Part shown: piece after piece, positions 38,632 to 56,394 of the stretch
Layout: each line of letters opens with the position of its first letter
How positions within the stretch are numbered: the first letter of the stretch is position 1
Assembly (NCBI RefSeq): GCF_900188185.1
Contig: NZ_FZPA01000005.1
Coordinates: forward strand, 62,001-126,000
Reading direction: 5' to 3'
DNA length: 64,000 nucleotides
Origin: Sphingopyxis indica
Lineage (GTDB): Bacteria > Pseudomonadota > Alphaproteobacteria > Sphingomonadales > Sphingomonadaceae
The notes under the pieces: model-generated
The model's input: the letters and a program-made list of their open reading frames with translations, nothing else
The model's database searches: none
Told to the model about the DNA's origin: nothing
Made by a program: the position numbers and the translations under genes

Positions 38632-38865
38632 TGTTATCGAATCAATATATGGATTCGGTCGCGCTGTCGAACCGCAATTTCGCGGGCAGGGTCATGGGCG
38701 ACTCACGGTGGCGCGGCTCGATTTGCTCCGACGGCCTGTGCATTACGAATTTCCCCGATAGCGCCCCCATCGGACGGCGGAAATGAGCGGGCACCGCCCG
38801 TGGGCGGCGGCTCCAAAGCCAGTCTCGCGCACCTTCCCGTCATAACATTTGTTGACGACCAAACT
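38632..38865. promoter_or_regulatory. Divergent promoter region with two degenerate copies of the regulon repeat
   Basis: TGTTAT-N4-TCAATA at 38632-38647 and TGTTGA-N4-CAAACT at 38850-38865 resemble the TGTTGA-N4-TCAACA element found intact at 43088, 55303 and 56379. They flank the two promoters expected for the DUF2236 gene and the MFS gene. Apart from these, the 466-bp gap 38608-39073 holds nothing I can identify. Confidence 0.4.
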
Positions 38866-39073
38866 TATTTATGAAAGCAATCGCCAAGGCCGCGAGCGAC
38901 GGCGTGCACTGCTGAGAGGATGTCTAGGGTTCCCGCGGAGGCACTACTGCTCCGGGCACCAGGAGCAAATGCGGGAACCGGCCTTCGCAGCGCAGCGGCC
39001 GGAAGGCGTCGTCTCCACCTCCCCCCAGATCTTGCGCCGCCGTCGCTGCCGCAGACATGAGAGGCAAGGCGAG

Positions 39074-40327
39074 ATGGTTGAAGTGAGAAGGCGTCCCTGG
39101 TTCACGGTGATCATGCTGAGCGCCGTTTACGCTTGCAGCCAGCTCGACCGGCAAATCATGGGAATCCTGCTGGAACCCATCAAGCGGGATCTGGGGGCAA
39201 GCGATGCGCAAATGGGCTTCCTCGTCGGCCTCGCTTTTGCTGTATTCTATACATTTCTGGCCATCCCCATCGCCATGTTGGCCGACAAGGGACATCGAAA
39301 GAATATCATCGCCGCATCGATCATCCTCTGGAGTGCGATGACCGCCGTGTGCGGGATGGCCACCACCTATCTTCATATGGCGCTTGCCCGGATCGGCGTT
39401 GCGGTTGGCGAATCCGGTTCGTCGCCGGCCTCGGTGTCGATGATCGCCAACCTGTTCGACGCGGAGACGCGCGCGACGGCAATGAGCGTGTTCGTTTTCG
39501 GCGCGAATGTCGGGATGCTGATGGCCTTCCTCGGCGGCGGATGGCTGCTCGATACCGTCGGATGGCGCGAAACGTTCCTGATCATTGGGATTCCGGGCAT
39601 CATACTCGGACTGATGGTGCTGCTGCTCGTGCCGGAGCCGCCCACGGCGCCGGAAGCCGCGACGGATGCCGAGAAGGCATCGCTCGCGAGCACGATTCGC
39701 CACATGGCGGCGAACGCGCCGATGCGACATATACTGATCGGCAAGTCGCTCGGCGGCTTTGTGGGCTATGGCATGGTCCTGTGGATCCCGACCTTTCTTG
39801 TCCGCAGCCATGGGCTGAGCGGAACCGAGATCGGGCTGACGCTGGCACTCTTTGTCGGGCTGGCGGGCGGCATCGGCACCCTGATGTCGGGCCGGATCGC
39901 CGACTTCCTCGGGAAGCGGGACGGACGCTGGCGGTCCTGGTCGATCGCGATATCGAAGGTCGTCACGATCCCTTTCCTGCTCGGCTTCTTTCTCGTCGAA
40001 AGCTACGAGCTCGCCCTCGCGCTCTATGTCATCCCGGCCACCATCGGCGCCTATTATCTTGCCCCGTCATCGGCGCTGATCCAGCAGCTGGTGGACGATC
40101 GGATGCGCGCCGTCGCCGCCGCGGTCAGCTTTTTTCTGCTGAACATGGTCGGGATGGGGCTCGGCCCGCAAGGCGTTGGCCTGCTCAGCGACCTGCTGGC
40201 CCCCGCTTACGGCAATCAATCCCTGCGCTACGCGCTCGCGGCATTTGTTTTCGTCAACCTGTGGGCCGCATTCCATTTCTGGCGCGCCGGATCGCTCTTG
40301 CCGCGCCGCGCGGTGCAACCCGCCTGA
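39074..40327 (+). CDS. MFS transporter (spinster-like)
   Basis: This is 417 residues with about 12 hydrophobic helices. The start region YACSQLDRQIMGILLEPIKRDLG and the MLADKGHRKNI loop are typical of the spinster-like MFS group, common beside acyl-CoA catabolic genes in sphingomonads. AAGG precedes the ATG; the longer open frame upstream begins with a TTG and is not membrane-like. It is divergent from the DUF2236 and acyl-CoA synthetase genes and probably imports a related organic acid. Confidence 0.85.
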   Translation: MVEVRRRPWFTVIMLSAVYACSQLDRQIMGILLEPIKRDLGASDAQMGFLVGLAFAVFYTFLAIPIAMLADKGHRKNIIAASIILWSAMTAVCGMATTYLHMALARIGVAVGESGSSPASVSMIANLFDAETRATAMSVFVFGANVGMLMAFLGGGWLLDTVGWRETFLIIGIPGIILGLMVLLLVPEPPTAPEAATDAEKASLASTIRHMAANAPMRHILIGKSLGGFVGYGMVLWIPTFLVRSHGLSGTEIGLTLALFVGLAGGIGTLMSGRIADFLGKRDGRWRSWSIAISKVVTIPFLLGFFLVESYELALALYVIPATIGAYYLAPSSALIQQLVDDRMRAVAAAVSFFLLNMVGMGLGPQGVGLLSDLLAPAYGNQSLRYALAAFVFVNLWAAFHFWRAGSLLPRRAVQPA

Positions 40328-40499
40328 CCCCGTCCGGCCCCGGCGCCGCGGGGGCGTGGAGAACGGCGCACGGTCGCTTTGGAGCGAAGTCCAGCAAGAC
40401 GGCACAGGCTCGCGCGGGTGTCGCCTTTCGCGCGAAATGATGGTCGCCGTCCGCCCATCGGTAACCGCACGGCACAAGCGATATTGATGGATGAACAAT

Positions 40500-40525
40500 A
40501 CCCCCCGGGACTGGTCCCGGGGGGT
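40500..40525. terminator. Intrinsic terminator hairpin between convergent genes
   Basis: Arms ACCCCCCGGG and CCCGGGGGGT (10 bp) surround a 6-nt loop. On the minus strand it is followed by TATTGTT, so it most likely ends the TonB receptor transcript (gene ends at 40585); it may also stop the MFS transcript coming from the left. Confidence 0.7.
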
Positions 40526-40584
40526 TAGGGTCGGAATTTCCGGCCAGTCCAGCCGGCCGTATCTGGAGCAGTGAGGCGAGGCCT

Positions 40585-42984
40585 TCAGAAATCGAAGCGA
40601 AGGCTCACGCCATATTCGGCGGGGTTGCCAAGAAACCCATCCTTGCTGCCGCTCTGGGCCACCGAGTTGAAGTTGATCAGGGCATAGCCCTTGTCGGTAC
40701 AGTTGCGGCAAAAGGCCGATATTTCGAACTTGTCGTCGATTCGGATACCCGCCGACAGGCCAAGCAGCGAGTATCCGGGCAGCATCACAGGCTCGCCGTC
40801 GGAGCCGACGCGCGTACCGCCGAAAAACTTGCTCGTGAAGTAGAAGTTGGGCTGAAAGAAGACATCGACGTTGCTCGAAACCGGGCGATCGATGCTTGCC
40901 GTCAGCGCGCCGCTCCAGCGCGAAGCACCGCCCAGCGGCTGTCCCGCCAACGGAGGTTCCCCGGACAGGACCGAAGGCACGTCCTTGCCATAGTCCGAAT
41001 CGAGGAAATTCAGATTCCCGCCGACACGGATGCCGTCCGCGACCCGCAGCCCCGCTTCCAGCTCGACGCCGCGTGTTCGCGCCGATCCCGCGTTGGAAAG
41101 GAAGAAGCCGGTTCCGGTGAAGGTGTTGAGCTGCAGGTCGGTATAACGCGCCTGGAAAAGCGTAAGGTTCAGCGTCAACCGGCGATCGAACCATTGCGAC
41201 CGCACGCCCAGTTCATAGGAGTTCACCGTTTCCGGCTTGAATCGCGGATCTTTGACATCGCATCGATAGATCGTGCCAAGGCCGGGGACGACCATCGCGA
41301 CCTGTCCCGAGGCCGAGCAATCCGGGTTGCGCGAATAGACCGGGCCGGCCGCATCGCGTCCGAGAGCGAAGCCGCCGGCCTTGTACCCGCGCGAATAGCT
41401 GACATAGGTCATGACGTCGGGCGTCCAGCGATAATCGAGGACGGCGGTGCCGGAGAAGGCATCTTCGGACAGAGTCAGGTCATAGGGGTTGGACGGCGCG
41501 CCCACAGGGACGAAACCGGCATAGGGCAGGTTCGCTGTCGGGCCGTTGAAATAGGGATTTGCGACCGCGGCTTTGTCTTCCTTGGTCCAGCGAAGCCCGG
41601 CGGTGAAGTGCAGGCCGTCGGCGATTTCGAAGATATTGTGCGTGAAGAGCGCATAGCTTTTGGCATCTTGCTGAGCGCGGGTGCCATTGCTGTCCTGTAG
41701 CGCCGGATAGAGCCCGCGAAGCGCCGGATTCAAGAAGCCGAAATAGGGGTTGGCATCGACGCCCGTGTCGATGCTTTCGCCATAATCGATCTTCTCGGAC
41801 GAGAAATAACCGCCGAACAGCCAGTCGAGCCTGTCGCCGAACGCACTCCCCTGAAGGCGCAGCTCCTGTGAAAAGACACGCAGCTTGAAGTCGATTTTCT
41901 GATTGAAAATTTCCGCGCCCGAGAAGTCGACGTCATTGTCGGTGAAATCGGTGAACTTGCGATAGGAGGAGATCGAGGTCAGCGTCGCGCCGCCAAGCCC
42001 CGCATTGAGCTGCAAATAGATGCCGCGGTCCTTGTTCGTGTTGACCACCGGCCCATTGACCGACGTCTCGTAGGAAAAGGGATCGGGCACCACCGGGTAG
42101 CTATTGCCGTGCATCGCTGCGAGGTCGGCCAGGAACGCGACGTAGGGCGCATTGGCGCCATTGACCTGGGCATTGGTCAACCGCACCGACTGGCAACAGC
42201 GTTCGTCGGATTCCGAATAGTCGAGACCGACCAGGGCCTCCACATCCTCGCCCAACTGAAAGAGCAGTTTGCCCGCGATGGTGAAACGGTCGCGATTGTT
42301 ATAGGTCGTATCGGCCAGCGGGTCTTTGATAAAGCCGTCGCGCTTGTGATAGCCGAAGCTCAGGCGCATCCCGACTTTCTCGGGCGCGAGCGGCAAATTC
42401 ACGGCGCCGCGGAAGCGCACGAGATTGCGATTGCCGACGGTCCCTTCGGCATAGCCCTCGATATCGGTGAGATCGGGTTTGCGCGTCGTCACTTCGATAA
42501 CGCCGGCCGTGGTGTTCTTTCCGTAGAGCGTCCCTTGCGGTCCGCGCAACACCTCGACGCTTTCGACATCCACGAAGTCGCCAAGCCCGGCACCGGACCG
42601 GGAACGGTAGATGCCGTCGACCGAGAAGCCGACCGCCGCTTCGAGGCCCGCGTCATTGCCCGAAGTGCCGACTCCGCGCAGCTGGATCGACGTCGACGTC
42701 GCCGGACGGTTCGCGGTCTGCGTCCGCAAACCGGGTGTCGCGGTCTGAAGGTCGGTGACGCTGGTAATGCGGGCCTCTTCGAGCGATTCACCGCTGACCG
42801 CCGTCACCGCGAGCGGGACGTTCTGCAGCGATTGCGCGCGCCGCTGCGCCGTCACGATAATTTCCGAGTCACCATGGGTGCTGGCGGTGGATTCATCCGC
42901 ATGTTCGGCGTCTTCCGCCGCCATCGCTACCATCGGAATCGCCAGAGCGGCCATCGCCGCAGACGTGAGAACAAGCCTCTTCAT
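40585..42984 (-). CDS. TonB-dependent outer-membrane receptor
   Basis: This is 799 residues with a signal peptide (ending VAMAAE). Then come EIIVTAQRRAQSLQ (TonB box region), the plug (VPLAVTAV, VESVEVLRGPQGTLYGKNTTAGVIEVTT) and a long barrel ending GVSLRFDF. AAGGGGA stands before the ATG. It belongs to the catabolic type and is likely the outer-membrane entry for the substrate of the acyl-CoA island, since two copies of the island's operator lie 82-119 bp upstream. A signal inverted repeat ends its transcript at 40500. Confidence 0.93.
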   Translation of the reverse strand: MKRLVLTSAAMAALAIPMVAMAAEDAEHADESTASTHGDSEIIVTAQRRAQSLQNVPLAVTAVSGESLEEARITSVTDLQTATPGLRTQTANRPATSTSIQLRGVGTSGNDAGLEAAVGFSVDGIYRSRSGAGLGDFVDVESVEVLRGPQGTLYGKNTTAGVIEVTTRKPDLTDIEGYAEGTVGNRNLVRFRGAVNLPLAPEKVGMRLSFGYHKRDGFIKDPLADTTYNNRDRFTIAGKLLFQLGEDVEALVGLDYSESDERCCQSVRLTNAQVNGANAPYVAFLADLAAMHGNSYPVVPDPFSYETSVNGPVVNTNKDRGIYLQLNAGLGGATLTSISSYRKFTDFTDNDVDFSGAEIFNQKIDFKLRVFSQELRLQGSAFGDRLDWLFGGYFSSEKIDYGESIDTGVDANPYFGFLNPALRGLYPALQDSNGTRAQQDAKSYALFTHNIFEIADGLHFTAGLRWTKEDKAAVANPYFNGPTANLPYAGFVPVGAPSNPYDLTLSEDAFSGTAVLDYRWTPDVMTYVSYSRGYKAGGFALGRDAAGPVYSRNPDCSASGQVAMVVPGLGTIYRCDVKDPRFKPETVNSYELGVRSQWFDRRLTLNLTLFQARYTDLQLNTFTGTGFFLSNAGSARTRGVELEAGLRVADGIRVGGNLNFLDSDYGKDVPSVLSGEPPLAGQPLGGASRWSGALTASIDRPVSSNVDVFFQPNFYFTSKFFGGTRVGSDGEPVMLPGYSLLGLSAGIRIDDKFEISAFCRNCTDKGYALINFNSVAQSGSKDGFLGNPAEYGVSLRFDF

Positions 42985-43065
42985 GTGATTTCCCCTTCGA
43001 CATCCTCTCGGGGTGGCTCGCTCGCTCGGCATGGCCATCTCCCATGCGCAGAAGCAGCATATATT

Positions 43066-43103
43066 TGCCGATCAATCAAGATATATTTGTCGACTGATCA
43101 ACA
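43066..43103. promoter_or_regulatory. Two tandem copies of the regulon inverted repeat before the TonB receptor
   Basis: TGCCGA-N4-TCAAGA at 43066-43081 and TGTCGA-N4-TCAACA at 43088-43103, 22 bp apart. Both fit the TGTTGA-N4-TCAACA pattern found before other units of the island. In the rest of the gap 42985-43346 I see an AT-rich stretch near 43220-43260 and the terminator at 43255. Confidence 0.6.
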
Positions 43104-43254
43104 TATTTGTTGTCAGCCAATTCCTCGAAAACACCCAAGAAAACCTCAGTATTGCGTTTCCTTTTGCAACCCCTTCGCCGACGTTTCCGCATCGCTTTCC
43201 GCACGCGATGACGCGGCGAATAAATATTTGTTTTATAATCAGTCAATTTATCTG

Positions 43255-43293
43255 ACAAAAGAGCGGCCCCGCCAGAGAGGATGGCGGGGCCGC
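43255..43293 (-). terminator. Rho-independent terminator of the DUF35-thiolase-hydratase-SDR unit
   Basis: Perfect 12-bp arms GCGGCCCCGCCA and TGGCGGGGCCGC surround a 7-nt loop (43263-43293). On the minus strand TCTTTTGT follows directly, so it terminates transcription running leftward from the SDR gene (ends at 43347). Confidence 0.85.
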
Positions 43294-43346
43294 ATTGGAG
43301 GAGCCAAAGGCTCCGCCCCCGGAGGCCAAAGAGGATTGCGATGTCG

Positions 43347-44231
43347 TCAGGACATCCCGCCCGACGCCCCTCCGCTCGCCGAAACAACCTGTCCGGTGAC
43401 ATAGTCGGAAAGCGGCGAGCACAGGAAATAGACGGCGCCGGCCGCTTCCGTGATGTGGCCTGCACGTCCGAGCGGAATTTGCTTGAACGGGCGAGGCTTA
43501 TAGATCTCGTCGCGCGAATATTCGCGGCCAGGATCGACCGTCACGCCCCGCTTCGCGAGCGTCTTGTGCGGCACGCCCATCTGCACCTCTCGGCCGCCGA
43601 CGGTAATGCGGTTCTGCTCGCCCTGAGGGAGTCCGAACCGGGTCTGGATGATCCCGAATGCGGCGGCGTTGACGTTGATCTTGTGCGGACCCCATTCCTT
43701 GGCGAGCGCCTTGGTCAGCCCGATTACGCCAGCCTTGGCGGCCGAATAGTTGGCGGCCCCGATATTGCCGAAGGATGCCGCCAGCGACGACACGTTGACG
43801 ACCTTGCGCATCACTTCGACGCCGGCGGCGGCGTCGGCCGCGGCGGCGGCGAACAGGTGCGGCGCGGCGGCGCGCAGGATCCGGAACGGCACGGTGACGT
43901 GGATATCGAGCATGGCCTGCCACTGTTCGTCGGTCATCTTGTGCAACATCGAATCCCAGTGAAAACCGGCATTGTTCACGATGATGTCAAGTCCCCCGAA
44001 CCCCTCCACCGCAGCGTCGACGGCGGCACCCGGGACCGCAGGGTCGAGGAGGTCGCCGGTAAAGGTGGTAACCGCATCGCCCAGCTCGCTCTTGACCGCC
44101 GCCGCGGCTGCCTCATCGAGATCAACGACCAATATTCTGGCGCCTTCGCTGGCCAGTTTCTGGACGACGGCATAGCCGATACCCTGCGCGCCGCCTGTAA
44201 CCAGCGCCACCTTGTTGTCGAGCGTTCCCAT
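43347..44231 (-). CDS. Short-chain dehydrogenase/reductase
   Basis: This is 294 residues. Motifs: TGGAQGIG, NNAGFHWDS, VNVSSLAASFG with the catalytic Ser, and YSAAKAG with Tyr and Lys. About 40 extra residues before the last helix (QMGVPHKTLAKRGVTVDPGREYSRDEIYK) lengthen it beyond the usual 250. AGGGGA precedes the ATG, and the gene starts right after the hydratase stop (1-bp gap). It probably oxidises the 3-hydroxyacyl-CoA made by the hydratase, ahead of the thiolase-like enzyme. Confidence 0.88.
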   Translation of the reverse strand: MGTLDNKVALVTGGAQGIGYAVVQKLASEGARILVVDLDEAAAAAVKSELGDAVTTFTGDLLDPAVPGAAVDAAVEGFGGLDIIVNNAGFHWDSMLHKMTDEQWQAMLDIHVTVPFRILRAAAPHLFAAAAADAAAGVEVMRKVVNVSSLAASFGNIGAANYSAAKAGVIGLTKALAKEWGPHKINVNAAAFGIIQTRFGLPQGEQNRITVGGREVQMGVPHKTLAKRGVTVDPGREYSRDEIYKPRPFKQIPLGRAGHITEAAGAVYFLCSPLSDYVTGQVVSASGGASGGMS

Positions 44232-44232
44232 A

Positions 44233-45003
44233 TTATTTCCCCTGCCAAACCGGATCGCGCTTTTCCGCGAAGGCGCGCAATCCTTCCTGCATGTCTTCAG
44301 ACCTTCGAAGCGGCGCCACGATTTCGGCTTGCTTCTCCCAAGCCTCGGCGTCGGTCCATTGTTCCGCGGCACTGCGCGCCGCGATGGTCTTCGATGCCTG
44401 AACGGCCAGCGGCGCGTTGCGAACGATCAGCGCCGCATATTCCAGAGCGGCCTCGAGCGCCTGTCCTGGCTCGACCAGGTGGTTCACATAGCCGAGCCGC
44501 GCCATATCCTCGGCGGGCCGGGGCTCGGCGGTGACGATCATCTCCATCGCGACCTGGTGGGGAATGCGCCGCGGCAGCCGGAAGCAGCCGCCGCCGACGG
44601 CGACTAGTCCGCGCTTGGCTTCGGAAAGCCCGAAAACGGCGGCGCGGGACGCAACGATGATGTCGCAACAGAGCGTGAGCTCCATTCCGCCTGCGAGCGC
44701 CTGCCCTTCGACCGCGGCGATAAGTGGCTTCAACGGCGGTTGGCCCATGATACCAAAGCCGCCACGCTTGCGCGTCACCGCCCGCTCCCCCTTTGCCGCG
44801 GCAATCAGGTCCTGCCCGGCCGAAAAGGTCGGCCCTTCGGCGACGATGATCGCAGCGCGCAAAGCGGGATTGGCGTCATAATCGTCGATGATCGATTCCA
44901 TCTTCTCCGCCATCCCCTTGTTGAAGGCGTTGCGCGCTTCGGGGCGGTTGAGGCGGATGATGAGAATGTGCCCGCGCACCTCGGTCTGAATATATTCGGT
45001 CAT
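44233..45003 (-). CDS. Enoyl-CoA hydratase/isomerase (crotonase family)
   Basis: This is 256 residues. The oxyanion loops EGPTFSAGQDL and EGQALAGGMELTLCCDIIVASRAAVFGLSEAKRGLVAVGG are characteristic. GAGGAAAGG precedes the ATG. It lies between the SDR and thiolase-like genes in a minus-strand unit that starts with DUF35. It should hydrate an enoyl-CoA (or isomerise its double bond) in the beta-oxidation of the island's substrate. Confidence 0.9.
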   Translation of the reverse strand: MTEYIQTEVRGHILIIRLNRPEARNAFNKGMAEKMESIIDDYDANPALRAAIIVAEGPTFSAGQDLIAAAKGERAVTRKRGGFGIMGQPPLKPLIAAVEGQALAGGMELTLCCDIIVASRAAVFGLSEAKRGLVAVGGGCFRLPRRIPHQVAMEMIVTAEPRPAEDMARLGYVNHLVEPGQALEAALEYAALIVRNAPLAVQASKTIAARSAAEQWTDAEAWEKQAEIVAPLRRSEDMQEGLRAFAEKRDPVWQGK

Positions 45004-45031
45004 ATCGCCTTTCCTCTCTCGATCGCGGGGC

Positions 45032-46174
45032 CTAGCGGGTCAGAACGTGGACGTAACAAACGGCTCCGACGCCAACCATGTGCGCGAGCCCCGCCTTCGC
45101 CGCCGGCTGTTGGCGCGCGCCCGCTTCGCCGCGCAGTTGCCGGACGATCTCACCGATCTGTCCGATTCCGGTCGGGCCGATCGGATGCCCCATCGCGATG
45201 AGCCCGCCCGACGGGCTGATCGCGCACTGACCGCCGATGTTCCACGCACCCTCCTTGAGCATCGGGACGAACCGGCCCGGTGGGCATATGCCGGTGGCCT
45301 CCGCATAGAAGAGCTCCTCGATCGTGAAGGCGTCGTGGAGTTCGATGACGTCGAGGTCGCCGGGACCGAGCTGCGCCTCGCCGATCGCGCGCGCCATCGT
45401 TTCGATCGTTAGCGCGGTGTCGGGATTGAGATCATTGTCGGCCTTCTGGCTACCCGCAGCCGACGAAGCGACGCGGACGGCACGCCCCGGATCGAGGCCG
45501 AGCCGCTTGATGCCTGCTTCCGATACGACGATCACTGCGGCCGCGCCTTCGCCGACGGGAGTGCATTGGAGCGCCGTGAGATTGCCGGAAATCGCCTTGC
45601 CGCCGAGCACCTCTTCAAGCGTGCGCTCCTTCTGGCGCTGTGCATTGGGATTCTTGGCGCCATTGGCGTGATTCTTGACCGCGACGAGCGCGATGTCTTC
45701 GGGAGCGATTCGGTGCTTGCGCGAATATTCGTCGGTCAGCAGCGCGAAATGGGTAAAGGGCGCGATCGCATCCTCGGCAAGGTTCGGAATCCCGGTGGGC
45801 GAGCGGAAGATGCCTGACTTGGGCGGCTTGTCGACACCGACCGCCAGCGCGACGTCACTGATTCCCGATGCCACCTCGATGCAGGCGTGGCGGAACGCCG
45901 CCGACCCCGAAGCCGACGCATTTTCGATATGGATGATCGGCGATCCGAGCGCGCCCAGATGCCGCAGCATCGGACGGCCGACCGCCATTCCGAGCAGCGC
46001 GTTGGCGACATAAGAGGATTCAACGGCCTCCCAATCGATGCGGGCATCGGCGAGGGCTTCGCGAATGGCGCGCAGCCCCAGCGCGACATAGCTGGTGTCC
46101 GACGCATATTGATAGGGGTGAAAGCCGATCCCGACGACATAGACGGGGACGAGATCGCTGATGAGGCGGGCCAT
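45032..46174 (-). CDS. SCP-x/Ltp2-type thiolase-fold protein lacking the nucleophilic cysteine
   Basis: This is 380 residues with the thiolase fold of the sterol-carrier-protein-x branch (ELHDAFTIEELFYAEATGI, SPSGGLIAMGHPIGPTGIGQIGE with its catalytic His). At the position of the nucleophile (NCATGS in human SCP2 thiolase) it reads ASASGS, so Ser87 replaces Cys. Steroid side-chain aldolases of the Ltp2 type are cysteine-less, thiolase-fold enzymes that work with a DUF35 partner, and a DUF35 gene ends 2 bp upstream of this one. So a retro-aldol or other non-thiolytic cleavage is more likely than classic thiolysis. Confidence 0.88.
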   Translation of the reverse strand: MARLISDLVPVYVVGIGFHPYQYASDTSYVALGLRAIREALADARIDWEAVESSYVANALLGMAVGRPMLRHLGALGSPIIHIENASASGSAAFRHACIEVASGISDVALAVGVDKPPKSGIFRSPTGIPNLAEDAIAPFTHFALLTDEYSRKHRIAPEDIALVAVKNHANGAKNPNAQRQKERTLEEVLGGKAISGNLTALQCTPVGEGAAAVIVVSEAGIKRLGLDPGRAVRVASSAAGSQKADNDLNPDTALTIETMARAIGEAQLGPGDLDVIELHDAFTIEELFYAEATGICPPGRFVPMLKEGAWNIGGQCAISPSGGLIAMGHPIGPTGIGQIGEIVRQLRGEAGARQQPAAKAGLAHMVGVGAVCYVHVLTR

Positions 46175-46176
46175 GA

Positions 46177-46590
46177 TCAGGGCCTCCCCGTTTCCGGAGC
46201 GAAGCGGAGGTCGAACGGCCCCTTGTCGGGCCGGGTCTCTTCAACGAGGCGGCTGGTCATGACGGTCCCCGGCGCCAGATCGGCGTCTGCGGGGACTTCG
46301 AGGATCGAGCGCACGACGGCACCGTCGTCGGTTGCGATCGAACCCACGACATAGGGCGCCGGGCGACGTGGATTCATCGAGACATGAACCTCGGCGCTCG
46401 CCACCAACCGGCCGCGCCCGCCAATCAACCAGGGTTCGAGTTCCTCCGAGCCGCAGCGCTCGCAGCCATAATGCTGCATCGGGAAGAAGATATATCCGCA
46501 GGCCTTGCAGCGGCCGCCGTTCAGTGCGGGATGGTCCGGCAGCGCACCGGTGCCTTGCGCCGCAAAGAGCGCGGCGGCCTGATCGTCCAT
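46177..46590 (-). CDS. DUF35/OB-fold acyl-CoA-associated protein with zinc ribbon
   Basis: This is 137 residues. An N-terminal rubredoxin-like zinc ribbon (Cys28, Cys31, Cys43, Cys46 in GGRCKACG and YGCERCGS) is followed by an OB-fold domain (GRGRLVASAEVHVSMNP, PYVVGSIATDDG). GGAGG lies 5 nt before the ATG at 46590. DUF35 proteins partner with thiolase-fold enzymes or MaoC hydratases. The gap to the thiolase-like gene is 2 bp. It is the first gene of the unit and lies opposite the acyl-CoA synthetase gene, with an operator between. Confidence 0.9.
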   Translation of the reverse strand: MDDQAAALFAAQGTGALPDHPALNGGRCKACGYIFFPMQHYGCERCGSEELEPWLIGGRGRLVASAEVHVSMNPRRPAPYVVGSIATDDGAVVRSILEVPADADLAPGTVMTSRLVEETRPDKGPFDLRFAPETGRP

Positions 46591-46649
46591 GGCATCCTCC
46601 ATTATTTTGACGCCTGTCTTGCACCGGCCATACCCGCATGCAAGACATT

Positions 46650-46665
46650 TGTTGATCCGTTGACA
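46650..46665. promoter_or_regulatory. Regulon inverted repeat between DUF35 and acyl-CoA synthetase genes
   Basis: TGTTGA-N4-TTGACA, inside the longer palindrome ATTTGT-N10-ACAAAT. It sits in the middle of the divergent promoter region 46591-46753 and could control both units. Confidence 0.6.
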
Positions 46666-46753: not shown

Positions 46754-48328
46754 ATGTCGCAGGCCGCCGAGCAAGTGCCAGCCGCAGCTACAGCGCGCCC
46801 GGGTTCGGTCGAACATTGGGCGCTGACGCGACCATCGGTTGTCGCATTCGTCGAAGGCGATCGTTCGCTGACGTGGGGCGAACTCAACGATCACGCCGAT
46901 CGGCTCGCAGCGGCCCTCTCCGAACGCGGGATCAAGGCGGGCGATGTCGTCGGGGTGCGAACCCAGATTCGAATCGAATGGCCCGTCATCGATGCCGCGC
47001 TGGCCAAGCTAGGCGCTGCCGTGCTCGGCATGAACTGGCGGCTGACCCCCGCCGAAGTCGAATATGTGCTCGGAAACAGCGGTGCGGCCGGATTGATATG
47101 CGACGATGCGGACCCTGCGCCGCTGCTGCCGGCGCTCGCGCGATGCCAACCCAAGGTCCAGATCAGCATCGATACCGCCGCTTCCGGTTTCACAAGCTGG
47201 CAGGACGCGCTCTCGCTCCCTGCTGAACCGCGCTTCTCGCGGCAGCCGGCCGGGCTCGTGATCTATACGTCGGGAACCACGGGCTTGCCGAAAGGCGTCG
47301 GTCAAAATCGCGTCGCGCCGGCCGACATGCAGCGCGTGGCCGAATATTATGCGAGCATCGCGGCTCGCTCGCCGCGCGGGATCGATGACGTCATCCTTTG
47401 CACCATGCCCTTTTCGCACGGCGCCGGTCCGGGGCTCGTCCGCGGCGGCGTGAACGCGGGTGCGACCATGATTCTGCAGCGGCGCTTCGATCCCGTCGAA
47501 GTGCTCGAACTGATCCAGACATATCGCGTCACCATCTGGACCGGCGTTCCGACGATGCTGAAGCGCATCGCCGCGCTCGGCGACGACGTGATGACGCATT
47601 ATGACCTGTCGTCGATGCGCGCGCTCCACACGGGCGCCGCGCCGGTGCCGCCCTCGCTCAAGCAATGGGCGCGTGCGCATTTCGGCGAGACGCTTCACGA
47701 AGCCTATGGCGCGACCGAAGTCGGGATGATCGCGCACCTTACGCCGGACATGCAGAAGGTCCGTCCCGCCTCGTCGGGCTATCCCTATCGCCATGTCGAG
47801 GTGAGCGTGCGCGACGATAAAGGCAGGCCGCTCCCGACGGGCGAAGCGGGCGAGCTCTGGATCCGCACGCCGGTCACGATCAAAAACTATCTCAACGCGC
47901 CGGGCCTTGGCCCCGACACGCTAGACCCCGACGGTTTCTTCCGCGTCGGCGATGTCGGCTATGTCGATGAAGAAGGCTATATCTTCATCACCGACCGAAT
48001 AAAGGACATGATCATTTCGGGCGGGGTCAACATCTATCCTGCCGAAATCGAAGCGGTGCTCATCCGGCACCCGGCGATCCAGGACGTCGCGGTTATCGGT
48101 ATTCCCGACGATGAGTTCGGCGAGTCGGTGAAAGCGTTCGTCGAGCTCAAGCCCGGCGCGACGCTCGCCGACGGCGAACTTCGGGATTTCGCGCGCGGCG
48201 CGCTCGCATCCTACAAGCGGCCGAAATCGATCGACATCGTCGACGACCTGCCCCGCAACACGATGGGCAAGATATTGAAGCGCGAACTGCGCGAACCCTA
48301 TTGGAAGGATCGCGACCGCCAGGTGTGA
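46754..48328 (+). CDS. Acyl-CoA synthetase (AMP-forming)
   Basis: This is 524 residues. Motifs: IYTSGTTGLPKGVGQN, EAYGATEVGM, GFFRVGDVGYVDEEGYIFITDRIKDMIISGGVNIYPAEIE and the catalytic Lys in NTMGKILKREL. GGAGAGGAAG precedes the ATG. It is transcribed away from the DUF35 unit with a shared operator between, so it is probably induced together with it and performs the first (CoA activation) step of the pathway. It shares family and ending style (REPYWKD) with the enzyme at 35591 (RAPYWEG). Confidence 0.92.
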   Translation: MSQAAEQVPAAATARPGSVEHWALTRPSVVAFVEGDRSLTWGELNDHADRLAAALSERGIKAGDVVGVRTQIRIEWPVIDAALAKLGAAVLGMNWRLTPAEVEYVLGNSGAAGLICDDADPAPLLPALARCQPKVQISIDTAASGFTSWQDALSLPAEPRFSRQPAGLVIYTSGTTGLPKGVGQNRVAPADMQRVAEYYASIAARSPRGIDDVILCTMPFSHGAGPGLVRGGVNAGATMILQRRFDPVEVLELIQTYRVTIWTGVPTMLKRIAALGDDVMTHYDLSSMRALHTGAAPVPPSLKQWARAHFGETLHEAYGATEVGMIAHLTPDMQKVRPASSGYPYRHVEVSVRDDKGRPLPTGEAGELWIRTPVTIKNYLNAPGLGPDTLDPDGFFRVGDVGYVDEEGYIFITDRIKDMIISGGVNIYPAEIEAVLIRHPAIQDVAVIGIPDDEFGESVKAFVELKPGATLADGELRDFARGALASYKRPKSIDIVDDLPRNTMGKILKRELREPYWKDRDRQV

Positions 48329-50054: not shown

Positions 50055-50120
50055 GACTCGTCTCCGACAGGGTGACCCGCAAGCCACCTGACAGCACGTC
50101 GACCAGACGGCCGCCGCGCC

Positions 50121-50296
50121 CCAGTCCCGCTGTCAGAAACCTGAGAGATTCACGCCGCGGCGCTTGCTCCTTCGGTGGACGGCGCGATGGCCGTCACTCT
50201 CCAGCTGCCTTGTGTCGAACGGTCCCCTTTGCCTGAGAGATTCCGGGACATTGCTCCTTCGGCGTCAGACGAATCGCTGAACTCTCCCGCTCGACC
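50121..50296 (-). promoter_or_regulatory. Tandem glycine riboswitch
   Basis: On the minus strand two aptamers follow one another. The first has GGGAGAGTT, GCCGAAGGAGCAA and GGAATCTCTCAGG; the second has TGGAGAGTGACGG, ACCGAAGGAGCAAG and TGAATCTCTCAGG. These are the conserved blocks of the glycine element. It precedes the DadA-like gene. Eight bases at the tail of the second aptamer (50129-50136) are complementary to 50088-50095, between it and the ribosome site, and may form the switching helix. Confidence 0.92.
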
Positions 50297-50304
50297 CCGC
50301 CCTC

Positions 50305-50324
50305 AATATAGTAATGACTATATT
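50305..50324. promoter_or_regulatory. 20-bp palindrome upstream of the glycine riboswitch
   Basis: Perfect 8-bp arms AATATAGT and ACTATATT are separated by 4 bp. It lies just upstream of the riboswitch transcript and may hold its promoter or an operator of GntR-like form. In the remaining part of the gap 50055-50510 I see no gene. Confidence 0.5.
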
Positions 50325-50510
50325 AATTCAAGACCGGTCGGAAACGCAAATTCGCCTCGGGTTTCATCTTCGCGTTTCAACGGAAGGAGGCGCCGGATAC
50401 GGCTGGCAAGGCACGACATCGGCGTCGCGCGCGCACGACGGGCGCACCGCCCCCGACCCGGAACGTTGGACCATCATATGCCGACCGGCCGCGCCGGTCG
50501 CGGAAATTGC

Positions 50511-51119
50511 CTATTTGCGAGGCTTCAGACGCTCGCGCAGCGTCGCGATGAATTCTTCACCGACCGCAACCTCTTCCCAGCTTGGATCGAGCGTTGCAAA
50601 ACCCATCTGTCCGCGCATGAACGCATAGATGACCGCGGCCTGATGCTCGACATGGACATCTTCGCGGATATTCCCGAGACGAATGCCGCGCTTGATTTCC
50701 TTCTGGATGGCGGCGAGCCCTTCGGCATTGAGCCGTTCGACCGTCTTGCGAAGATTGGGCCGCACAAGGGCCTGGGTCAGGATGATCTGCAAACAGCGAA
50801 GCGCGACGCCGCGCGTGCGGACATAGATGCGAATCAATTCTTCGATGCGGGGGAGGCCGCCCTCGGTTTCGGATATTTGGCCGAGTTGTCGATGATAGCT
50901 GTCGATCGTGAATTCCGCGACGCGGGCGAGGAGGTCTTCCTTCTTGCCGAAATAATGCGCTGGCAAACCACGGCTATATCCCGCTGCATCGGCAACGTCG
51001 GCCAAGGTAAAGCCATCATAGCCCCGCTCGGCGATCAGCTTGATCGCGAAATCTAGAAAGCGCGTTTCTGCCTTTTCCCGACGCTCCGCATGTGTCTGTC
51101 GACGTACCGTCTTTGCCAA
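50511..51119 (-). CDS. TetR-family transcriptional regulator, candidate regulator of the acyl-CoA island
   Basis: This is 202 residues from a TTG with GGGAG 8 nt upstream; no in-frame ATG suits. HTH: FLDFAIKLIAERGYDGFTLADVADAAGYSRGLPAHYFGKKEDLL. The helical C-terminal domain follows (LRCLQIILTQALVRPNLRK). It is the last gene behind MFS and two CoA-transferase genes, whose promoter carries the TGTTGA-N4-TCAACA repeat, making it the best candidate to read this element; another regulator off-window is possible. Confidence 0.85.
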   Translation of the reverse strand: MAKTVRRQTHAERREKAETRFLDFAIKLIAERGYDGFTLADVADAAGYSRGLPAHYFGKKEDLLARVAEFTIDSYHRQLGQISETEGGLPRIEELIRIYVRTRGVALRCLQIILTQALVRPNLRKTVERLNAEGLAAIQKEIKRGIRLGNIREDVHVEHQAAVIYAFMRGQMGFATLDPSWEEVAVGEEFIATLRERLKPRK

Positions 51120-51183
51120 AATTCAAACTCCCTTGCCCGTCTATGCAAAAAAGCCGCGCTCCTTTGCAAGGGGCAGTGGGAAG

Positions 51184-52395
51184 TCAGCCGAGAACATTTG
51201 CCTCGCGAAGCTCGTCGATCTGTGCGCCGGTCAGCCCCAGAACCTCCCGGAGGATCTCGTCGCCAGCGGCGCCGAGGATCGGTCCGGGGCACCTCGCCGG
51301 CCGGGGATCGGCGGACAGGCGCCACGATGGTGCCGGGATGACGATATCGCCGAGCAAGGGGTCGAACACCGGTTCATAGTGGCCGAGCGCTTCGAGGTTG
51401 GGGTCGTCGCCCAGATCCGCGTCGCTCGATACGACGTGGGCCGCGATGCCCTCGGCCTGGAGCATGGTCTCGATCTCCCGGGCCGAGCGATGCCGCGTCC
51501 ATCCCGCAATCGCGGCGTCGAGGCTGGCGCGCGCCCGCAGCCGCCCGACGAGCGTGTCGAATTCCTTCGCGTCGAGCGCCGGTGCGAGACGCTTTCGCAG
51601 CGCGGACCAGGCCTTGTGGCCGACGGCATCGATCGCCACCCAGCAATCGTCACCCGCACAAGGATATAGGCCCGACGGAGCGTTCAGCGGCGCAATCGCG
51701 TCGCCCACGCGCCCGGCGATGTGCCCGTTTGCGGCATAATCATAATAGGCCGGCGCCAGAAATTGGAGGCCCGCCTCGGCCTGCGAAAGGTCGATATGGG
51801 TTCCGCACCCGGTTGCACGACGCCGATGCAGCGCGGCAAGGACGCTGACGGCCAGAAAGCGGGGCGCCACGGCGTCGGTCCAAGGCCCATATGGCCCTGC
51901 CGGCGCGCGGTCCGGCCACCCCACGAGATTGGTCGCGCCCGAATAGGCCGAGCCGGTAAGGCCGGTTCCGCTCATTCCCATTCCCATGCTGCCCTTGCGC
52001 CCGAGCAAGCCGCTCGACACCATGATCAGACCCGGATTTTTCTCGGCGAGCAGCGCATAGGACAGCCCCATCTTGTCGATCTGACCGGGCGTGAAGCTCT
52101 CCACGAACACGTCGGCCGTGGCGACGAGGCGCTTCACGAGCTCGACCCCCTCCTTCTGCTTGACGTCGACCGCGATGCTGCGCTTGCCGGCATTGGTCAT
52201 ATGATAGGAGAGCGACCGGTTCAGCCCCGGCTGGCCATCCTGATAGGGACCGAGGCCACGCAGCGGATCGAGCCGCTTGCCCGATTCGACCTTGATCACG
52301 TCGGCGCCCAGATCGGCGAGATAGCGGGCGCCATGGGGACCAGCCATCAGCCAGCCCATATCGATGACGCGAAGACCGGAAAGCGGGAGGTTCAT
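51184..52395 (-). CDS. CaiB/BaiF-type CoA transferase (class III)
   Basis: This is 403 residues. N-terminal LRVIDMGWLMAGPHGARYLADLGADVIKVE and the conserved catalytic-Asp region (HIDLSQAEAG) identify the family, which transfers CoA between carboxylates. The start overlaps the stop of the preceding transferase gene by 1 bp (TGATG). Two adjacent members suggest a heterodimer. It likely moves CoA from a donor thioester to the pathway acid. Confidence 0.9.
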   Translation of the reverse strand: MNLPLSGLRVIDMGWLMAGPHGARYLADLGADVIKVESGKRLDPLRGLGPYQDGQPGLNRSLSYHMTNAGKRSIAVDVKQKEGVELVKRLVATADVFVESFTPGQIDKMGLSYALLAEKNPGLIMVSSGLLGRKGSMGMGMSGTGLTGSAYSGATNLVGWPDRAPAGPYGPWTDAVAPRFLAVSVLAALHRRRATGCGTHIDLSQAEAGLQFLAPAYYDYAANGHIAGRVGDAIAPLNAPSGLYPCAGDDCWVAIDAVGHKAWSALRKRLAPALDAKEFDTLVGRLRARASLDAAIAGWTRHRSAREIETMLQAEGIAAHVVSSDADLGDDPNLEALGHYEPVFDPLLGDIVIPAPSWRLSADPRPARCPGPILGAAGDEILREVLGLTGAQIDELREANVLG

Positions 52396-53609
52396 CAGAT
52401 GATCCCTTGGGAAAACAGCGCCTGCAGCTCGGTTTCGCCGAGGCCGGCATGAGCGGCGAGCAACTCGCAGCTGTGCTCGGAAAGCGCCGGTGCATGGCGG
52501 CGGACGCCAATTTCGTAATCGCTGAACTGAACGAAGCGAGCCGGCACTTCGACGCGTTCGCCGCCGATGTCCTGCACGGCGAACAAGCCGCGCTCGCGAA
52601 AATGGGGGAAGGCGGCAATGTCGGCCATCGTCATGATCGGCGCCGCCATGAAGCGATGGCGCTGCGACGCTTCGGCGATTTCGCTTTTCGTCTTTTGTGC
52701 GCAGGTCCGCGTGAGCGCGCCGATCAGGTCGTGGAGCGGCGCCGGATCGGCCTCGTCCCGGGCGAGCCGGCTGGTCAGCGCCAAAAAGTCGATTTCCATA
52801 TGATCAGGCGGCAGGCTTCCTTCGTCGACCAGCCACGCGACGACCCCTCGGGTCAGCCCCATGAAGGCGGGCAGGAAGAGCAAGGTGACGGCGGCCCATC
52901 CGTCCGAACATTCGAACAGTCCGGGCACGGGCGGCAACCGTCCGATCGTCGTCGGGGCGCTGCGCCTGGCAAGTGGTCCGCCCGACCTCGCCGCCACAAT
53001 CCGCCCGAGCGAGGCAAGCGTCGCCGCGGTGTGAGCACCGATCTCGATCGCCTGCCCCGCGCCGTCGCGATCGCGGGCCAGAAGGCCGCCGATCGCCGCG
53101 ACGGCGGCGTCCGCCCCAGCCTCCATCATGGCCTGCGGGACCGGGAAGAACAGCGGCGACCTGTCGACGTCTCCGGCCAGCGCCGGGGCGCCGCCCGCCG
53201 CGGTCAGGATGAGCTCGGTCGATTTGTAGTGCGCCTTGGGTCCCGAAGGTGAGAATGGCGTAACGCGGCACCGGACGAGCCGCTCGGGGACGGCGATCGC
53301 GTCGGCGTCCGGCAGGCCCGCCGGGCCCTCGATCAGAATGTCGAACGCGGGAAGCAATTGCTCGAGCAGGGAGACACCGTCCGGTGTCGACAGGTTGAGC
53401 GTGATACCGCGCTTGTTGCGATTGAGCGCGTGCCAGGTCAGGCTGTTCTCCAACCCCGGCTTGCCGCCGATGAATGGTGCAAGTCGCCGCCCTGCCGCAC
53501 CGGACGGCGGCTCCAGCGTCACCACATCGGCTCCCAGGTCGCCCAGTATCTGCCCGGCCAGCATCGTCGCGGGCTCCGACAGTTCCAGAACGCGCACATT
53601 TTCAAGCAT
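52395..53609 (-). CDS. CaiB/BaiF-type CoA transferase (class III), second copy
   Basis: This is 404 residues. LELSEPATMLAGQILGDLGADVVTLEPP and AGQAIEIGAHTAAT are family motifs. The catalytic Asp found in other members (in V/I-D-x-S) is not obvious here (IEIGAHTA), so this half may be a structural partner of the downstream copy. The ATG at 53609 is 8 nt after AAGGAG; an upstream GTG overlaps that site. It lies 58 bp after the MFS gene. Confidence 0.88.
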   Translation of the reverse strand: MLENVRVLELSEPATMLAGQILGDLGADVVTLEPPSGAAGRRLAPFIGGKPGLENSLTWHALNRNKRGITLNLSTPDGVSLLEQLLPAFDILIEGPAGLPDADAIAVPERLVRCRVTPFSPSGPKAHYKSTELILTAAGGAPALAGDVDRSPLFFPVPQAMMEAGADAAVAAIGGLLARDRDGAGQAIEIGAHTAATLASLGRIVAARSGGPLARRSAPTTIGRLPPVPGLFECSDGWAAVTLLFLPAFMGLTRGVVAWLVDEGSLPPDHMEIDFLALTSRLARDEADPAPLHDLIGALTRTCAQKTKSEIAEASQRHRFMAAPIMTMADIAAFPHFRERGLFAVQDIGGERVEVPARFVQFSDYEIGVRRHAPALSEHSCELLAAHAGLGETELQALFSQGII

Positions 53610-53667
53610 CAACGCCACTCCTTCGGCACCTGCGGCTCAAACGGGTCGATCTTTCCATCGGGTCGGG

Positions 53668-55230
53668 TCAGGCGGGCGGTGCGGCTACCACCGCGCCGCC
53701 CGCCTCTTTCGCGCGGGCCGCCACGCGCAAGGCGCGCAATTGCTCCACATTCGCCTCGTGCCGCTGCCGCGTGATCGGATAGAAGAGCAGCAGCACACAG
53801 CCGCATGCCCAAAGACCGAAACTGACGGGCATGTAGTTGAGCAGAAGACCGTCGGTCATCGCCTCGGTCACCCGGTCGGGATCGACCTTCTTGGGAAAGC
53901 CCGAACCGACGAGAATTTGCGATGCGACAAGCGAGCCGAGCGCGGTCGAACATTGCTGCATGAAGCTGGATGCTGCGAAAAACACCCCTGCGCTGCGCTG
54001 TCCGGTCTCGACGGCGGAGTCCTCGACCACATCGGCCAGCATCGCCGTCGTGTTGATCAGCGAGATGGTGACCATCGTTCCGTAAACAGCGCCGATCACG
54101 AACAGGGCGGCGATCTGCCGCTTGTCGCCCGGCTCGAAGAACAGGTCGAAATAGATCAGCAGCAACGGGACGAGGCTGACCGCAACCCCGCCAAGGGCGA
54201 ACAGCATCGAACTCGCCCGCTTGCCGATTCGGTTGGAGAAATAGGGCGCGAGCGGCGCGGCAAGCATCGCCGCCACCAGGCTGTCCAACACCAGAATCGC
54301 CATCTGGGCCGAAGTGAGTTTGAAGAGATAGGTCGCGAAATAAAGGGCCATCACGCTGTAGGCGCCGGTTGCGGTATATTTGCAGACGCCAAAGCCGAAG
54401 ATCGCGAGGAAACCGCGATTGCGGAAGGCCGTTGCCATTTCCCTCGCATGCGCCCCGAGCCGCATGCGCTCCTGCTGGGGCTCGGCTTGGGGAAGATAGG
54501 GTATGCGGCTGTGAGTGCCGAGCGCGCATACCAGGATCGCGATGGCGATCAGCAAGGCACCGCAGAGCGCGAAGCCGCTATAGCTGTCGGGGTTGAGCTG
54601 ACCCAGCGGATATTCGGGCGTCATTTTGAAGATCACGGACAGGGCGACCGCGCTGAAGCCATAGGCCCCGATGTAACCGAACAGATAGCGCAGCGAAAAC
54701 AGCCGGGTCCGTTGGTTATAATCGTCCGATAACTCAACCGCCATGGCGGACGACGCGATCTCGAAGGCGCTGATCGACACGCGCGCGAGACCGGCAAGCG
54801 TAAAGACCCAAAGCCCCGTCGCGAAGTCGGACAGCCCCGCCGGCGGGAACCAGAGGAGATAGAAGAACAGCGCGGTCGGCAGCGCTGCGAAATACATGAA
54901 GGGGTGCCGCCGCCCCCAGCGCGACCGTGCCATATCCGTCCATCGGCCGAGCAGCGGGTCGGCTACGGCATCGACGATAAGCGTCGCCGCATAGGCGATC
55001 CCGATCACCGAGGCGTCGACTCCGACGACCTGGTTGAAATAGAAGGTGACGTAGGAGGCGAGGCTCGCATTCTTGACCCCGTTGGCAACCGCACCGAATC
55101 CGAAGGCCGCGCGCAGACGCCTTCCAAGCGGCGGCGGGTCATCCGAGATCCGACTGCCCGGTGCCCCCGAGCCCTCGTCCATTCGCGTTTCCGACGCATT
55201 GCCCGGCGCGACATTTGCCTTCGCGGCCAT
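53668..55230 (-). CDS. GPH/MelB-type MFS transporter (MFS_2)
   Basis: This is 520 residues with about 12 membrane helices. The pattern FYFNQVVGVDASVIGIAYAATLIVDAVADPLLGRWTD and RSRWGRRHPFMYFAALP is that of cation:sugar symporters of the MelB group, including the relatives seen in catabolic islands. It is the first gene of the unit with two CoA-transferases and TetR, and carries the regulon repeat 73 bp upstream. The substrate is presumably the island's organic acid or glycoside. Confidence 0.88.
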   Translation of the reverse strand: MAAKANVAPGNASETRMDEGSGAPGSRISDDPPPLGRRLRAAFGFGAVANGVKNASLASYVTFYFNQVVGVDASVIGIAYAATLIVDAVADPLLGRWTDMARSRWGRRHPFMYFAALPTALFFYLLWFPPAGLSDFATGLWVFTLAGLARVSISAFEIASSAMAVELSDDYNQRTRLFSLRYLFGYIGAYGFSAVALSVIFKMTPEYPLGQLNPDSYSGFALCGALLIAIAILVCALGTHSRIPYLPQAEPQQERMRLGAHAREMATAFRNRGFLAIFGFGVCKYTATGAYSVMALYFATYLFKLTSAQMAILVLDSLVAAMLAAPLAPYFSNRIGKRASSMLFALGGVAVSLVPLLLIYFDLFFEPGDKRQIAALFVIGAVYGTMVTISLINTTAMLADVVEDSAVETGQRSAGVFFAASSFMQQCSTALGSLVASQILVGSGFPKKVDPDRVTEAMTDGLLLNYMPVSFGLWACGCVLLLFYPITRQRHEANVEQLRALRVAARAKEAGGAVVAAPPA

Positions 55231-55302
55231 GGTGTTCGATCCTCTCTCCCGGCGCGCCCTCTTCGTCCGGGGCATGGCCAGAGCGCCATCCTCGACACAA
55301 TA

Positions 55303-55318
55303 AGTTGATCAGTCAACA
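55303..55318. promoter_or_regulatory. Regulon inverted repeat before the MFS-CoA-transferase unit
   Basis: AGTTGA-N4-TCAACA, arms matching the 56379 copy except one position. It stands 73 bp upstream of the MFS start in the gap 55231-55395. Confidence 0.65.
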
Positions 55319-55395
55319 AATATTATCGAATGATCGAGATGCGGTGAGCGACCGGCAGCCGGCCGTCGGTAGCCGGCAGAATGACGGGGCCCTTC

Positions 55396-56187
55396 CTAAA
55401 GCGCGAGGGTCATCCCGCCATTGACCGGATAGGTCTGACCGCTGATCCAGGAACTGGCGTCCGATGCGAGGAACAGGACCATGTTCGCGATATCGACGGG
55501 CTCGCCGGGACGGCGGACGATATATTTGTCAAAGACTCGCTTCATCCGCTCGGGATCGTCCATCAGCCTTTCGGTCGCTGCCGTTCGCGTCGCGGCGATC
55601 GCGACGCAATTTACCGTGATGCCGAAGCGCGCGAGGCTGCGCGCCGCGCTTCTCGAAAAGCCGGCGGCGCCCGCCTTCGCCGCGGCATAGGCTTCGAGAC
55701 CCGCGTCGCCATAGCGCCCGGCATCGGAGATGATCGTGACGATGCGCGCCGGCGCCTGTCGCGCGATCATGCCGGGGACGACGGTTGCGGCACAATTCAT
55801 CACGCCATAGAGATTGACCCCGATCGACTGGTTCCAGACGTCCGGCCCGGTTTCCCAAAAAGGCTTGCGGACATCGGGGGACGGATTGGCGCCCATATTG
55901 CCGGCATTATTGACGAGGACGCCGACCGCCCCGAGCTCGGCCACGATCCGCTCGTTCATGTCCTTGACCGCCTCGAGGTCGGTCACGTCGGCTTGCACCG
56001 CGATCGCCTTGCCGCCGGCCGCTCTTATCTCGCTCGCGACCGCTTCCGCCCGGTCCAGATAATAATCATTGACCGCGACGCCGCCGCTATTGTGCCCGGA
56101 AAGGTGGAGAGCGATCTGACGGCCGATCCCCTGCCCCGCGCCGGTGACCAGGGCTACCCGCCCCGCGAGATCCAATATGTCGGCCAT
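55396..56187 (-). CDS. Short-chain dehydrogenase/reductase
   Basis: This is 263 residues. Motifs: TGAGQGIG, NNAGNMG, the catalytic Ser in TIISDAGRYG and YAAAKAGAAG. GGGAGGGA precedes the ATG. It is an alcohol/3-hydroxyacyl oxidoreductase of unknown substrate. It carries its own copy of the regulon repeat about 190 bp upstream and lies between the MFS and acyl-CoA dehydrogenase genes. Confidence 0.9.
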   Translation of the reverse strand: MADILDLAGRVALVTGAGQGIGRQIALHLSGHNSGGVAVNDYYLDRAEAVASEIRAAGGKAIAVQADVTDLEAVKDMNERIVAELGAVGVLVNNAGNMGANPSPDVRKPFWETGPDVWNQSIGVNLYGVMNCAATVVPGMIARQAPARIVTIISDAGRYGDAGLEAYAAAKAGAAGFSRSAARSLARFGITVNCVAIAATRTAATERLMDDPERMKRVFDKYIVRRPGEPVDIANMVLFLASDASSWISGQTYPVNGGMTLAL

Positions 56188-56378
56188 AGATTTCCCTCCC
56201 CGTTGATCGACCTGGTTTCCGGCGCGCTCAACCGGGCGGGTGGCGGCATCCGATGATCCTCGCCCCGCCGCCTGGCCGAAGCCCCGATAGAAGGGACCTC
56301 CTTCGCGTGTTCGCGCATGGCCCCTCCCCGGCGCGCGTCCTGTGCTGACATTCCAAGACGTCGGCCGCAACATTTATT

Positions 56379-56394
56379 TGTTGATTATTCAACA
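56379..56394. promoter_or_regulatory. Regulon inverted repeat, best copy, before the SDR gene
   Basis: TGTTGA-N4-TCAACA with perfect arms. It sits in the gap 56188-56422 between the SDR and the acyl-CoA dehydrogenase pair. Confidence 0.7.

Follow-up and report, generated by a model that had tools for sequence, protein, structure and literature searches.

KstR2, a regulator of the TetR family, controls HIP steroid ring catabolism in actinobacteria, and FadR (the TetR-type regulator of Bacillus) and AibR, two further members of the family, have been solved with stearoyl-CoA and isovaleryl-CoA, respectively, according to their PDB titles. Here we describe a locus of Sphingopyxis indica that resembles the KstR2 system in having a local TetR and palindromic operators over a coenzyme A (CoA)-thioester degradation cluster. 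It lies in a stretch of 64,000 nucleotides (assembly GCF_900188185.1, contig NZ_FZPA01000005.1, positions 62,001 to 126,000; hereafter the window), which is part of contig C19 of the 4.15 Mb genome. Between 38.6 and 56.4 kb of the window, an island of uptake and acyl-CoA genes carries a recurring palindrome in its promoters and encodes a TetR protein of its own. Computation locates the sites, confines them to the island and finds the palindrome conserved with a clade of related TetR proteins in other genomes. On this basis we consider it quite likely that the island TetR binds the palindromes, represses the island units and is released by a CoA thioester or the corresponding acid.

A palindrome recurs in the promoters of one island

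The initial annotation of this stretch had listed an inverted repeat, TGTTGA-N4-TCAACA, at seven places, and these repeats are real. With up to two mismatches allowed, the pattern has 5 matches in the 64-kb window compared to 0.53 expected, and none of 100 shuffles gave 5. Four of the matches are sites on the earlier list; the fifth, at 40482, was dropped with a matrix score below 12. Aligning seven sites with their own reverse complements gave a fuller palindrome, ATATTTGTTGA-N4-TCAACAAATAT.

We built a 28-bp matrix from the four best sites only, with the other sites held out. The sites with the best match to the pattern, from which the matrix was made, are 43088–43103 (one mismatch, score 36.0), 56379–56394 (perfect 6+6 arms with no mismatch, 34.8), 55303–55318 (one mismatch, 33.7) and 46650–46665 (two mismatches, 31.7). 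Held-out scores were 32.3 for 43066–43081, 24.2 for 38850–38865 and 18.7 for 38632–38647, and the matrix also revealed a site that the earlier list had missed, 43229–43244, at 23.5. Across 100 Markov shuffles of the window the maximum was 18.9, with a mean of 0.0 sites scoring at least 20 and 0.2 sites scoring at least 16; 38632 alone would therefore not stand out. We regard seven sites as solid and 38632 as borderline. Weaker matches at 47982 (14.6), 48017 (13.1) and 55527 (12.6) lie inside genes and were not counted.

The placement of the repeats in promoter gaps also holds: in our gene list all eight sites are intergenic, 33 to 253 bp from the start codon downstream, in a region where non-coding DNA makes up 10% of the sequence. 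The borderline 38632 site is 33 bp before the start of an open reading frame (ORF) of 448 amino acids, and 38850 lies between this ORF (minus strand) and a major facilitator superfamily (MFS) transporter gene on the plus strand. Three sites (43066, 43088 and 43229) precede the TonB receptor gene, the first two spaced by 22 bp, about two helical turns. The 46650 site occupies the promoter region from which the DUF35 operon and the acyl-CoA synthetase gene diverge. Finally, 55303 precedes the unit MFS transporter, CoA transferase, CoA transferase and tetR, which bears out the earlier statement that this TetR belongs to a unit with such a site, and 56379 is 200 bp before the start of a gene for a short-chain dehydrogenase/reductase (SDR).

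The sites are confined to the island

A 17-base version of the palindrome with up to two mismatches matched 9 distinct places in the whole genome, 5 of which are in the window, that is, in 1.5% of the genome; the search gave 7 and 8 matches per strand compared to 3 and 2 for a reversed-pattern control. We also ran a model of the seven solid sites (without 38632) on the whole 4.15 Mb genome, scoring 150 of 202 first-look candidates. The seven best distinct matches are all in the island, with 43088 the best place in the genome, and the next-best match is a coding site, L053:280, with an E value of 4.5; 38632 was not listed at E ≤ 10. This model is circular for its training sites, and only the absence of others elsewhere is informative.

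A similar density of the motif in coding regions elsewhere would have spoken against the regulon, and it was not found: 400 kb of control sequence from the same genome (20 pieces of 20 kb from contig C31) holds 1 site scoring at least 20 and 3 sites scoring at least 16. The best control site is again L053:280 (25.6), which is inside an ORF and was taken as chance. Among the places outside the window found with the 17-base version, C20:72987 (one mismatch) precedes a different TonB receptor gene, 527 bp from its start; we do not claim it for the regulon, because it scores 17.7 and the 400 kb control already contains 3 sites of at least 16. The other three places (one in contig C29 and two in C31) score below 13 and were dropped.

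The palindrome accompanies relatives of the island TetR

The candidate reader of the sites is the 202-amino-acid product of the island tetR gene (50511–51119, minus strand). It matches the helix-turn-helix family PF00440 (TetR_N) above the cut-off (E 6.5e-13), and its predicted structure is a standard TetR fold, with a predicted local distance difference test score (pLDDT) of 90.3 and a predicted template modelling score (pTM) of 0.81. The 16 best-ranked fold neighbours include KstR2, FadR (rank 12) and AibR (rank 16), and also RutR, TtgR and QacR; the fold therefore does not name the effector. Close relatives are rare: at E ≤ 1e-20 they occur in 2 of 298 genomes of the family and 5 of 385 genomes of the class, the own genome included. 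Among 72,556 plasmid records, 6 carry a relative at E ≤ 1e-10, and the genome collection contains relatives at 5 loci.

Three relatives with 34–40% identity lie within the same DUF35-thiolase/acyl-CoA synthetase module. In Bradyrhizobium sp. BR13661 (locus L032) the module consists of DUF35-thiolase-TetR, a synthetase and dehydrogenases; in genome G649 (L042) synthetase-SDR-hydratase stands beside tetR with DUF35-thiolase opposite, and genome G929 (L095) has the same order. Three Sulfitobacter pontiacus plasmids (L031, L048 and L049) carry TetR-DUF35-thiolase.

We scored the relatives' loci with a matrix from five window sites, comparing nine loci with 100 shuffles each and later loci with 40. 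The site in the divergent promoter of the island (46650) has equivalents in all three modules. In L032, four places score above all 100 shuffles: 12372 (31.3) before the synthetase gene, 8125 (25.3) before DUF35-thiolase-tetR, the intergenic 3314 (23.9), and 13827 (23.9) at the upstream end of the following ORF. The L042 site, 10054 (25.2), lies between tetR and DUF35 and was equalled by none of 100 shuffles, and the site at the equivalent position in L095, 9913 (27.9), by none of 40. In the Sulfitobacter loci L031 and L048, three places were likewise not equalled in 100 shuffles (18.2, 18.2 and 17.9), and a weak site lies 110–130 bp upstream of tetR (13.5, with 18 of 100 shuffles as good, in L031; 13.2, with 13 of 100, in L048). 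This matrix comparison gave no place above all shuffles in L043, L044, L045, L046 or L047. L096 has a palindrome of similar kind (14.3, 3 of 40 shuffles), which precedes the neighbouring hydratase gene and not tetR. A palindrome scan that ignores the letters of the window put promoter palindromes at the top in both regions of L032 and in L043; in the window, in L031 and, loosely, in L045 they shared the top score. The L042 site was not among its best five, being outscored by other hairpins.

On the Sulfitobacter pontiacus plasmids, TetR-DUF35-thiolase stands alone between insertion sequence (IS) elements of the IS21, IS110 and IS30 types (L031:9463–14270), which suggests a mobile or remnant module.

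The site tends to follow the recognition helix

For each relative, we compared the 250 bp upstream of tetR with 2000 shuffles; the p values are uncorrected for the number of tests. Among 14 relatives with the helix motif AG[YF]S[RS]GL, a site was found in 10 at p < 0.05 and in 8 at p < 0.01 (p = 0.006 for L031). The 14 are not all independent: L103 and L105 belong to the same genus, and L042 and L104 lie in a single genome. This set leaves out L032, since tetR closes the DUF35 operon there (p 0.81 directly upstream), and likewise the window's own tetR (p 0.54 directly upstream); L097 (helix YSHSL, p 0.39) is also outside, and L048 and L049, which carry the same Sulfitobacter gene as L031, were not recounted. 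Three of the relatives with a site (L101, L103 and L105) have only the TetR in common with the island, their enzyme module being different. In contrast, none of 8 unrelated TetR genes from the DNA around these loci (those matching the clade profile with E above 1e-15; start codons chosen automatically) reached p < 0.05 (lowest p 0.06; two of the 8 are near-identical Streptomyces genes).

Conversely, where the module enzymes are accompanied by a TetR whose helix differs (LSHGL in L043, VSHGL in L045), the site is missing (p 0.81 and 0.05). The gap between DUF35 and the synthetase in L043 contains another palindrome, ATACTAGTTG-N2-CAACCAGTAT; the one in L045 is similar in sequence and weaker. 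Direct recognition would predict such a change of operator with the helix.

A different palindrome, [AG]CTTGTT-N5-AGCAAGT, occurs in three copies (9496, 14905 and 16730) at the L047 locus of genome G085, which also encodes a TetR relative; it is possibly the operator of that TetR.

A proposed local TetR regulon and its alternatives

Based on these results we propose that a dimer of the island TetR (50511–51119) binds TTTGTTGA-N4-TCAACAAA with AT-rich outer arms. The promoters bound would be those of the TonB receptor (three sites), of the divergent DUF35-thiolase-hydratase-SDR operon and acyl-CoA synthetase, of its own unit MFS-CoA transferases-tetR, of the second SDR and of the MFS transporter. 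Binding would shut these units off, and a pathway CoA thioester (or acid) would release the TetR, turning on uptake, activation and most degradation genes together; through the 55303 unit the TetR would also limit its own level. Binding, repression, autoregulation and the effector are inferred here. The TetR probably acts as a repressor that an acyl-CoA of the pathway relieves. Since its target genes deal with acids and CoA esters, the inducer is likely to be a CoA thioester of the pathway. The initial annotation had placed uptake, activation and degradation under this one TetR. Judged by the sites and by the conservation of the palindrome with the TetR relatives, which gives good support from outside the window, this appears largely right for uptake, activation and most of the degradation genes; the exception is the acyl-CoA dehydrogenase pair, which no site precedes.

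Several observations weigh against this regulon. Within the island, the matrix scan gave no site of at least 12 before the dehydrogenase pair (57361–58539/56423–57361), no sigma-70-type match of a promoter scan overlaps the sites, and a weak hairpin (51155–51126) lies between the CoA transferase gene and tetR. The Sulfitobacter sites are weak (in L031, 12654 scores 18.2 with 0 of 100 shuffles as good, and 11850 scores 13.5 with 18 of 100), L031 5053 (18.2) lies partly within the end of an unrelated cupin gene, and the L102 match (20.3, 0 of 40 shuffles) sits inside a TonB-like coding stretch. In the upstream test, four of the 14 clade members (L046, L096, L099 and L102) have no significant site within 250 bp of tetR, and two of those counted at p < 0.05, L047 and L098, have low scores (9.5 and 11.2). 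An alternative, automatic choice of start codons leaves 8 of 14 with a site (L048 standing for L031), missing those of L098 and L101 (p 0.85 and 0.43). Furthermore, two intermediate cases, L033 (p 0.01) and L106 (p 0.04), have upstream matches although they are outside the helix motif.

The strongest alternative, which we nevertheless regard as unlikely, is that another regulator uses the palindrome as its operator and that the 50511 TetR is incidental. Other regulator genes are indeed present in the window (a LysR gene at 58613–59521, a second TetR gene at 34964–35545 and a MarR-like ORF at 32169), and an unlinked factor may also be considered. However, none of these three genes has a site of at least 12 near it in the window, and in other genomes the palindrome accompanies relatives of the 50511 TetR, often just upstream of the gene and even with different enzymes, as in L101, L103 and L105. 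Less probable still is that this TetR is an activator or acts on some units only, with several of the listed sites unoccupied in the cell. TetR activators exist, the distances of the sites to the start codons vary (33–253 bp) and 38632 is borderline; on the other hand, most TetR proteins repress, and the promoter gaps that contain the strong sites are short. That the repeats arose by chance as AT-rich palindromes in intergenic DNA is very improbable, unlikely already for every site but 38632 (which is no better than the best shuffle), since the sites do fall in the non-coding tenth of the region but the mismatch, matrix and whole-genome counts and the conservation with the TetR in other genomes speak against it.

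A local TetR regulon would give this uncharacterised catabolic island its regulator and operator and thereby predict which genes form one pathway. Further members could be sought with the operator, the TetR could serve as a reporter for the substrate, and the pairing of helix and operator across the clade offers a small, testable recognition rule.

Genes behind the sites and the putative pathway

The 448-amino-acid ORF behind 38632 (37261–38607, minus strand) has no Pfam or NCBIfam match at 0.001; we take it to resemble the MpaB/DUF2236 oxygenase-like group. The transporter behind 38850 is of the MFS_1 type (39074–40327, plus strand; PF07690), and the TonB-dependent receptor is encoded at 40585–42984 (minus strand; PF00593, PF07715). 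The DUF35 operon, on the minus strand, encodes the DUF35 protein (46177–46593; PF12172), a ChsH2-like zinc ribbon/OB protein and partner of the thiolase homologue (45032–46174; PF22691, PF00108), followed by an enoyl-CoA hydratase (44233–45003; PF00378) and, last, an SDR (43347–44231; PF00106). A hairpin of 12 pairs, 11 of them G-C, with a T-rich tail lies 3′ of this operon; as a class, terminator-like hairpins are not above chance in the region (16 found, 14.0 expected). Divergent from the operon is the acyl-CoA synthetase gene (46754–48328, plus strand; PF00501). The tetR unit, on the minus strand, opens with an MFS_2 transporter (53668–55230; PF13347) and continues with two class III CoA-transferases (52395–53618 and 51184–52395; both PF02515). 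The second SDR (55396–56187, minus strand; PF13561) has a 75% identical counterpart in L042. Beyond it, a LysR gene is followed by the two-gene acyl-CoA dehydrogenase unit (56423–58539), which resembles PimC and IpdE2; its lack of a TetR site suggests a second layer of control.

The thiolase homologue has Ser at the position of the nucleophilic Cys in alignments to BbsB, SCP2-thiolase and archaeal-type thiolase. This residue, S87, is invariant in 5 of 5 aligned orthologues, as is the motif HDAF. Among solved structures, its best relative is BbsB (7pxp_C), and the overlapping genes of the CoA-transferase pair (51184–53618) each best match a different subunit of benzylsuccinate CoA-transferase (9fn0_B for 51184–52395 and 9fn0_A for 52395–53618). 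The island proteins stay far below the cut-offs of the curated models (213.5 of 750 bits for BbsB and 29.3 of 250 bits for BbsA), and the glycyl-radical enzyme family PF02901, found in 3 of 14 control genomes, is absent from this genome; toluene-derived benzylsuccinate is therefore an unlikely substrate. We also considered the degradation of bile-acid or steroid side chains, where DUF35-bound aldolases likewise lack the usual thiolase Cys (PMC8399759). These aldolases carry YDHF or YDCY (PMC12329534), and the HDAF of the island enzyme speaks against this assignment.

Tentatively, and with less confidence than in the regulon, we suggest that the TetR clade with helix AG[YF]S[RS]GL recognizes palindromes of the TTTG type around a 4-base centre. 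The clade would move between bacteria, Sulfitobacter plasmids included, together with an aerobic catabolic module that is new. This module would combine a benzylsuccinate-type CoA-transferase with a DUF35-bound thiolase homologue without the nucleophilic Cys, which may cleave its substrate by a novel, perhaps aldol-type, step. We found no paper in the open-licence literature describing this clade, the 50511 TetR or the operator, which is weak evidence of absence.

Comparison with known systems

Despite the shared layout, the island is not a KstR2 system: identity to KstR2 is about 20% by fold, the enzymes are others, and the sequence match (E about 5e-5 over 95 residues) is no better than that of many TetR proteins and does not indicate orthology. 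The site sequence of KstR2 differs from the island operator as well. In the review PMC8399759, KstR homologues are described as absent from bile-acid-degrading Proteobacteria. FadR and AibR have the same fold and the same kind of target genes, and differ in having 18–21% identity to the island TetR.

Among pathways, the beta-oxidation of benzylsuccinate (bbs) is close, with BbsB and both CoA-transferase subunits as the best solved relatives of island enzymes, BbsA ranking third among the solved relatives of the DUF35 protein and BbsD eighth among those of the second SDR. The island differs from bbs in its acyl-CoA synthetase, its PimC/IpdE2-like dehydrogenase pair, the Ser replacing the nucleophilic Cys and a genome without glycyl-radical enzyme. 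The steroid side-chain aldolases Sal and Ltp2 share with the thiolase homologue the DUF35 partner and the loss of the usual thiolase Cys, and Ltp2 (6ok1_A) is a weak sequence match (E 2.4e-12), whereas the island enzyme has HDAF instead of their catalytic motif YDHF or YDCY. The system is of an ordinary kind, a local TetR with its operators, set on an unstudied module.

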